From positions 524,953 through 588,952 of the forward strand of contig JASEFA010000001.1 in NCBI GenBank assembly GCA_030019365.1: 64,000 nt of DNA, in the 5' to 3' direction. Every line of letters starts with the position of its first letter. Positions within the stretch are counted from its first letter, which is position 1. The DNA comes from Bacillota bacterium (GTDB lineage: Bacteria; Bacillota; Sulfobacillia; JACIYH01). The translations under genes were made by a program, and so were the position numbers. The notes under the pieces are model-generated. The model made no database searches. It saw nothing but the letters and a program-made list of their open reading frames with translations, and was not told the origin of the DNA. This document shows positions 30,731 through 34,760 of this stretch, in pieces.

Positions 30731-31054
30731 CTAGATGTGAGGGTCCAGCTTTTTCTTCAGTTCCGCCCTGGGGACGTAGCCCACGATGCGGTCGACCGGC
30801 TGGCCGTCCTTGAAGAGGATCAGGGTGGGAATGGCCATGACGCCGTGCTGGCCGGCCAGGTTGGGGTTCTCATCCACGTTCACCTTGCCGACCCTCAGCC
30901 GGCCATCGTACTCCGCTGCCACTTCCTCCACCACCGGGGCCACCATGCGGCAGGGGCCGCACCACGGCGCCCAGAAATCAACGAGCACGGGCAGCTCGGA
31001 GTCACCCACTTCGCGAGGAAAGTTCTGCTCCGTCAGCTCCACAGGCTTGGCCAC
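30731..31054 (-). CDS. trxA: Thioredoxin
   Basis: Cytoplasmic dithiol reductant. VLVDFWAPWCGPCRMVAP carries the WCGPC active site. The cis-proline is in MAIPTLILFKDGQPVDRIVG, and KVNVDENPNLAGQHGV is typical. Length 107. GTG 31054 follows GAGGAGG with nine bases between. It has its own extended -10 promoter and is flanked downstream by a strong hairpin, so it is probably monocistronic. Confidence 0.97.
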   Translation of the reverse strand: MAKPVELTEQNFPREVGDSELPVLVDFWAPWCGPCRMVAPVVEEVAAEYDGRLRVGKVNVDENPNLAGQHGVMAIPTLILFKDGQPVDRIVGYVPRAELKKKLDPHI

Positions 31055-31086
31055 ACCGGATCGCCTCCTCGGACAAACTACGCCCT

Positions 31087-31095
31087 ATTCTACCA
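31087..31095 (-). promoter_or_regulatory. Extended -10 promoter of trxA
   Basis: TGG-TAGAAT on the minus strand, 33 bases before the trxA start codon. There is no good -35 box; TTGGAG lies 15 bases upstream, which is short. Confidence 0.55.
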
Positions 31096-31317
31096 CAGGT
31101 CTCCGCCCTCCAACAGATCAACGTGCGCGGCCACGGCGCGCAGGCGCGGCGCGGGGAGCACGCAGGGTCCCGTCCGGGCTATTCGTCCACTCCCCCGATG
31201 GGCCCGGCCCGCTACCTCCCGCATGACGGGGGCATGGGGCGGGAGTCTTTGAGAAATACCCACGCCCCCCTCGACCCTCGGGGTATTGAGGAGCAGTTCT
31301 AACAGGGTAAGTCTTGA

Positions 31318-31520
31318 TAAAAGGCCCGCCGTGCCGCATCTCGCGCCGTTTTGAACCCGCTCTCCGCAGGTGGGTGCCTTCCTGTCTGCTTTTTGCTTCC
31401 CCGGACCGGCCCTACGCCACCGGGGGGCATGCAAGCCACAGCCAGAGACCAGGCTCCCTTCGTTTTGGTGTTGGCCCAAAACTTCGCGGCGAGACCGCGC
31501 GCACGGCAGGCTGAACCTGA
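31318..31520 (-). ncRNA. ssrS: 6S RNA (RNA polymerase-binding regulatory RNA)
   Basis: In this otherwise gene-free stretch the minus-strand RNA folds as a 200-nt rod. GCCTGCCGTGC (31511-31501) pairs with GCACGGCGGGC (31334-31324) with one G-T wobble. Next TCTCGC pairs with GCGAGA, then GTTTTG with CAAAAC, separated by internal loops. At the apex CCCCGG pairs with CCGGGG inside GCTT/AAGC. TTTTATC directly follows the closing stem. GTTTTGG can also pair locally with CCAAAAC, a refolding feature like that of 6S RNAs. A sigma-A promoter precedes it. 6S genes lie near aspS in some Bacillota, as I recall for B. subtilis bsrA. Exact ends are estimated. Confidence 0.75.
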
Positions 31521-31543
31521 TGCCCTATTATTTTGTCAAATGC

Positions 31544-31572
31544 AGTTTAGCACACCCGGCCGCCTTTGACAA
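31544..31572 (-). promoter_or_regulatory. Promoter of the 6S RNA
   Basis: TTGTCA (31572-31567), a 17-base spacer and TAAACT (31549-31544) on the minus strand. The predicted start near 31537 is about 25 bases before the closing stem, so the 5' end may be processed. Confidence 0.65.
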
Positions 31573-31675
31573 GGGGGTTGTCCCAAAATCTGGCCGCCAC
31601 TCCAGAGAACGGCAGGTCAGACGGCGATACTCGGCCGCACTGCATGGGCGGTCCGATGGCCGCGCCCCGGCCGAC

Positions 31676-33454
<1,779 letters not shown>

Positions 33455-33479
33455 TCCTGCCACCTCTCCCCGATCCTCT

Positions 33480-34760
33480 TCACCGGTCCGGCAGGTAGCG
33501 CCTGAGGGCTGCCTCCAGGCTGCCGGCGGGAACCCGCACCTGGTCGCCAGAGCGCATGTCCCGCACCGTGACCTCCCCCGACGCCACCTCGTCCTCCCCC
33601 ACCATCGCCACCAGGGGAGCACCCAGGCGAGAGGCATGCTTCATCTGAGCCCGGAGGCTGCGGCCCAGGTAGTCGATGTCGGCCTGCCAGCCCGCCCCGC
33701 GCAGCCGGTACAGGAGGTCGAGGGCCACCGGGCGGGCCGCGTCGCCGGCGTACACCACCATCACCTGCACTTCTGCGGGTGGCGCGGGCAGTCTGCCCTC
33801 CAGCTCCAGGGTGGTGATGATCCGCTCCAGTCCGGCGGCAAAGCCCACCCCGGGGGTGCGATCGCCCCCCAGCTGCTCCACCAGGCCGTCATAGCGGCCC
33901 CCGGCGCACACCGTGCTTTGGGCTCCCAGGGCCCCGTGCATGATCTCGAACACGGTGCGGGTGTAGTAGTCCAGCCCGCGCACCAGGGTGGGATCGAGCA
34001 CGAAGGGGATACCCATCCGGCCCAGGAACTCCTGCACGGTGGCAAAGTGCTGCCGGCATTCGGGGCAGAGGAAATCGGTGGGCCGGGGTGCCTCCCGCAC
34101 CAGGGCCCGGCAGGAGGGCTCTTTGCAGTCCAGCAACCGCAGGGGATTGACCTCCAGCCGCCGGGTGCAGTCCGGACACAGGCCTTCCCGGCCCCGGAAG
34201 TAGGAGAGCAGGGCCTCCCGGTAGGAGGGGCGGCAACGGGGGCAACCGATACTGTTCAGGTGGACGGATAGCCCCTCCAGGCCCAGCCGCTCGAACAGGT
34301 CTCGAGCCAGGGCGATCACCTCGCCGTCCAGGGCGGGATCGTCCGCACCGAAGGCCTCCACGCCGAACTGCACGAACTGGCGGAATCGCCCCGCCTGAGG
34401 CCGTTCGTGGCGGAACATGGGACCCAGGTAGAAAACCTTCCACGGCAAGAGAGGGCGCTCGGACGCCTCCAGGTAGGCCCGCGCCACCGGAGCCGTCCCC
34501 TCGGGGCGCAGGGTGAGGCTGCGCCCGCCCCGGTCGCGGAAGGTGTACATCTGCTTTTCCACGATGTCGGTGGTCTCGCCCGTCGTGCGCTCGAAGAGTT
34601 CGGTGTGCTCGAAGATAGGCGTACGTACCTCGAGGTAGTGGTAACACCGGCACACCTGGCGGATGACATGTTCTACATACTCCCACACATAAACGGCCCC
34701 CGGCAGCACGTCCTGGGTACCCCGGGGCCGCTGAATCGCAGCCCTGGCCGCCCTGGCCAC
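33480..34760 (-). CDS. hisS: Histidine--tRNA ligase
   Basis: Class IIa synthetase for tRNA-His. RPRGTQDVLPG opens the catalytic domain; motif 2 is FRHERPQAGRFRQFVQFGVE; the histidine-A motif is RGLDYYTRTVFEI; GGRYDGLVEQLGG and the C-terminal anticodon domain follow. The insert carries two CxxC pairs (CPRC, CPDC) plus LDCKEPSC and CPEC, so zinc binding is likely in this version. I set the start at GTG 34760, because the perfect promoter at 34778-34806 overlaps any upstream start. Confidence 0.96.
   Translation of the reverse strand: MARAARAAIQRPRGTQDVLPGAVYVWEYVEHVIRQVCRCYHYLEVRTPIFEHTELFERTTGETTDIVEKQMYTFRDRGGRSLTLRPEGTAPVARAYLEASERPLLPWKVFYLGPMFRHERPQAGRFRQFVQFGVEAFGADDPALDGEVIALARDLFERLGLEGLSVHLNSIGCPRCRPSYREALLSYFRGREGLCPDCTRRLEVNPLRLLDCKEPSCRALVREAPRPTDFLCPECRQHFATVQEFLGRMGIPFVLDPTLVRGLDYYTRTVFEIMHGALGAQSTVCAGGRYDGLVEQLGGDRTPGVGFAAGLERIITTLELEGRLPAPPAEVQVMVVYAGDAARPVALDLLYRLRGAGWQADIDYLGRSLRAQMKHASRLGAPLVAMVGEDEVASGEVTVRDMRSGDQVRVPAGSLEAALRRYLPDR

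Follow-up and report, generated by a model that had tools for sequence, protein, structure and literature searches.

A Bacillus 6S-1 (BsrA)-type 6S RNA gene in the aspS–trxA gap of a little-studied Bacillota lineage

Introduction

6S RNA is a small RNA, widespread in bacteria, that imitates an open promoter and restrains RNA polymerase. In Bacillus subtilis the gene of 6S-1 RNA, bsrA, is flanked by aspS and yrvM (PMC11077062), and the mechanism of action of this RNA has been described (PMC8876501). By homology to 6S-1, the rod-shaped RNA reported here would imitate an open promoter and would bind the housekeeping (sigma-A) RNA polymerase holoenzyme, and the bound RNA would reduce transcription under nutrient shortage. 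Once nutrients are back, the polymerase would be expected to copy short pRNAs off the 5′ central bubble, a synthesis upon which the 6S RNA would refold and the polymerase would be released. Transcription of the gene, polymerase binding and pRNA synthesis are thus attributed to the present RNA by analogy with its family, while its identity, its structure with covariation, its promoter-like site and its gene order are shown below.

Identification of the 6S RNA gene

The RNA was found in the window, the whole 64-kb stretch of DNA that was analysed, where a search with Infernal against all of Rfam returned RF00013 (6S/SsrS) as the sole match. The match occupies positions 31515–31319 of the minus strand and extends over the entire model (positions 1–187 of 187), with a score of 91.7 bits (E = 6.2e-17, cmscan) against a gathering score of 46.4 bits. 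Its span of 197 nt, as measured by the model match, agrees with the ∼180–200 nt of the family, and like other 6S RNAs it has a closing stem, a large central bubble and an apical arm, a structure backed by compensatory changes. A preliminary description made from the DNA letters had proposed a 6S RNA at this place and had named the RF00013 search and compensatory changes in relatives as checks; the full-length match, far over the gathering score, bears out the identity, and the covariation described in the next section agrees with it. The locus almost certainly encodes a 6S RNA like Bacillus 6S-1 (BsrA), a rod-shaped product of ∼200 nt with a sigma-A type promoter of its own between aspS and trxA.

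Secondary structure and covariation

The 198-nt segment folds with a predicted energy of −101.9 kcal/mol (z = −3.93), and none of 200 shuffled sequences folds as well. Its ends are joined by an 11-bp pairing of 31511–31501 (GCCTGCCGTGC) with 31334–31324 (GCACGGCGGGC), which had been correctly recognized from the start and contains one U–G pair. In the Rfam alignment, this closing stem P1 (31324–31511) comprises 31511–31497 paired with 31324–31337. It is followed inward by helix P2 (31348–31482), in which 31482–31473 pair with 31357–31348 and which adjoins the central bubble. The 5′ side of the bubble (AACACCAAAACGAA) covers 31459–31472, and by analogy with B. subtilis 6S-1, in which the pRNA template starts at nt 40 (PMC8876501), the template start is expected nearby. 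The 3′ side covers 31358–31371 and could form a hairpin, ACCUGC/GCGGGU, with a predicted pair probability of ∼0.5–0.6; as in B. subtilis 6S-1, this hairpin would take up part of the P2 3′ strand. Positions 31372–31458 make up the apical (internal) arm, with helices P3 and up and the terminal loop.

This architecture was assessed in an alignment of 30 homologues made by MAFFT without structure guidance, from which RNAalifold recovered the closing stem, P2, the central bubble and the apical arm. Standard pairs occupy 95.7% of the cells and two-sided compensatory changes occur in 25 of the 48 pairs, in homologues that were chosen by the 6S model and therefore carry the model's own preference. Helix 1 is paired in 98.1% of cases, with two-sided changes in six pairs, and P2 in 93.3%, with such changes in five; helices 3–6 are 91–100% paired across the 30 sequences. 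All five covariation measures exceed those of every one of 500 shuffles, and when the 3′ partner is slid by 1–3 columns, pairing falls to 42–47%. Such a combination of pairing and covariation is what an RNA structure under selection would be expected to show.

Two further matched blocks had been noted inward of the closing stem, and each is now seen in a somewhat different light. TCTCGC/GCGAGA does pair in this genus, but it corresponds to an internal loop in Rfam and is unpaired in the family consensus. For GTTTTG there are two candidate CAAAAC partners: the first belongs to the 3′ strand of P2, the second to the 5′ central bubble.

A predicted hairpin that competes with helix P2

The second of these candidates would produce a hairpin on the 5′ side of the central bubble. 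GUUUUGG (31482–31476) and CCAAAAC (31468–31462) are predicted to form a perfect 7-bp helix in this genus, with a predicted probability of 0.98–0.99, and this helix excludes P2. Because the best P2-containing structure of the free RNA is predicted to lie 4 kcal/mol above the hairpin fold, the good support for P2 comes from covariation, not from the minimum-energy fold of the single sequence. A similar preference for the hairpin (≥0.78) is found in 10 of the 30 aligned sequences, including the three of this genus, and most of the others favor P2. In B. subtilis 6S-1 a weak 5′ central bubble hairpin has also been predicted, but probing did not confirm it (PMC8876501), and for this reason the hairpin is taken here as a folding prediction only.

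It is conceivable, though rather unlikely, that free 6S RNA is bistable in this genus and in some relatives. On the folding model, the hairpin at 31482–31462 would shut P2 and cover the expected pRNA template, and polymerase binding might depend on a switch to P2 or bring one about. Bistability of this kind, if true, would amount to a tuned variant of the refolding cycle of B. subtilis.

Promoter and gene neighbourhood

A sigma-70/sigma-A type promoter is present on the minus strand directly ahead of the RNA (31544–31572). It consists of TTGTCA (31572–31567), a 17-nt spacer and TAAACT (31549–31544), with a TG ahead of the −10 element that makes it an extended −10 (TGC), and it places the predicted transcription start at ∼31537. 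The promoter had been proposed with the same two hexamers and spacer, and a pattern scan of 31050–31700 (651 bp) finds it as the only promoter-like site, with a mean of 0.0 in shuffled sequences. Among three genomes of the same genus the −10 element TAAACT is identical, and the −35 element is TTGTCA here and TTGCCA in the other two.

The RNA gene lies between two genes on its own strand. Upstream is aspS (31676–33637, minus strand), encoding aspartate–tRNA ligase (NCBIfam NF001750, 796.7 bits), itself preceded by hisS, and downstream is trxA (30731–31054, minus strand), encoding thioredoxin (TIGR01068, 125.1 bits, over its cut-off). Both neighbours had been named correctly in the preliminary description, but the gap between them measures ∼621 bp (31055–31675) and not ∼500 bp. 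At E ≤ 1, no other RNA family was found in this gap. Small open reading frames that overlap the RNA were set aside since the RNA covaries as a structure; a long plus-strand frame (31370–33451) was set aside as antisense to aspS in high-GC DNA.

Proximity to aspS, typical of the 6S-1/BsrA RNAs of Bacillota without strictly defining them, had been taken as a sign of 6S RNA, and this neighbourhood is indeed conserved: in 23 of 30 loci the RNA directly follows aspS on the same strand. Of the remaining seven, two (L011 and L028) have <250 bases of upstream sequence present. Given the same adjacency in B. subtilis, the location reflects an old Bacillota arrangement and is no novelty; the aspS–6S order is confirmed as old and widely kept.

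The position between two same-strand genes would also suit a structured 3′ untranslated region or leader element of an aspS or trxA transcript that merely resembles 6S RNA, and portions of the aspS and yrvM transcripts that adjoin 6S-1 in B. subtilis do co-purify with sigma-A (PMC11077062). Against this stand the full-length match to the 6S covariance model and the promoter directly ahead, which is conserved in the genus. Moreover, trxA is the downstream neighbour in just 10 of 30 loci, which makes the RNA independent of trxA. A transcript element of this sort is therefore extremely improbable, and an autonomous 6S RNA gene is the reading retained here.

The 3′ end and the downstream flank

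Directly 3′ of the closing stem lies a U-rich tract (31309–31323, minus strand), a possible site of termination or 3′ end formation; the TTTTATC noted earlier does follow the stem. Across the 30 loci (L001–L030), T makes up on average 0.44 of the 14 nt behind the stem versus 0.21 further downstream (Wilcoxon p = 1e-5), which points to 3′ end formation at this tract, the closing stem perhaps doubling as a terminator stem. No classical terminator was found in a minus-strand scan of the DNA downstream of the RNA, and this region folds no better than shuffled sequences. In the three genomes of the genus, the RNA body is nearly identical and the downstream flank has completely diverged, a contrast that marks the 3′ border of the gene.

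Copy number and distribution

The genome (2.94 Mb, 97.8% complete) contains one 6S copy, and a search of the whole genome for a second one found none at E ≤ 10. A functionless chance match or a pseudogene relic of 6S RNA would hardly be compatible with a sole copy whose stems are intact and whose sequence stays nearly the same in three congeneric genomes next to a diverged flank, and scarcely any likelihood attaches to it.

A 6S match at E ≤ 0.001 occurs in 56 of 60 relatives, 55 of which exceed the Rfam cut-off; with the genome of the window included, the counts become 57 and 56 of 61. Five same-class genomes (G018, G032, G038, G047 and G053) are without a clear match. They include all three genomes of genus g17, where G018 gives a partial match only (28.5 bits) and G038 and G053 give none. 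Loss or strong divergence of 6S RNA is possible in the five. Two matches apiece, on separate contigs, are found in G015 and G042; these could correspond to a second copy or to an assembly mixture, contamination in G015 being 6%.

Comparison with known systems

The present copy is ordinary. It adds one member to a well-known family, an orthologue, from a little-studied Bacillota lineage, of a transcription regulator that is nearly universal; its novelty is low and it leaves the knowledge of 6S RNA unchanged. Compared with RF00013, all consensus helices are present along the full-length match, but a few of the outermost stem pairs are non-standard and the closing arm is lengthened by the genus-specific TCTCGC/GCGAGA pairing. 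With B. subtilis 6S-1 (BsrA) it shares the rod with a central bubble, a gene of its own directly downstream of aspS and a potential small hairpin in the 3′ central bubble. The two differ in the downstream neighbour, trxA here and yrvM in B. subtilis, and in the 5′ central bubble hairpin, which is weak and unconfirmed by probing in B. subtilis, whereas the perfect 7-bp version found here is predicted to outcompete P2.
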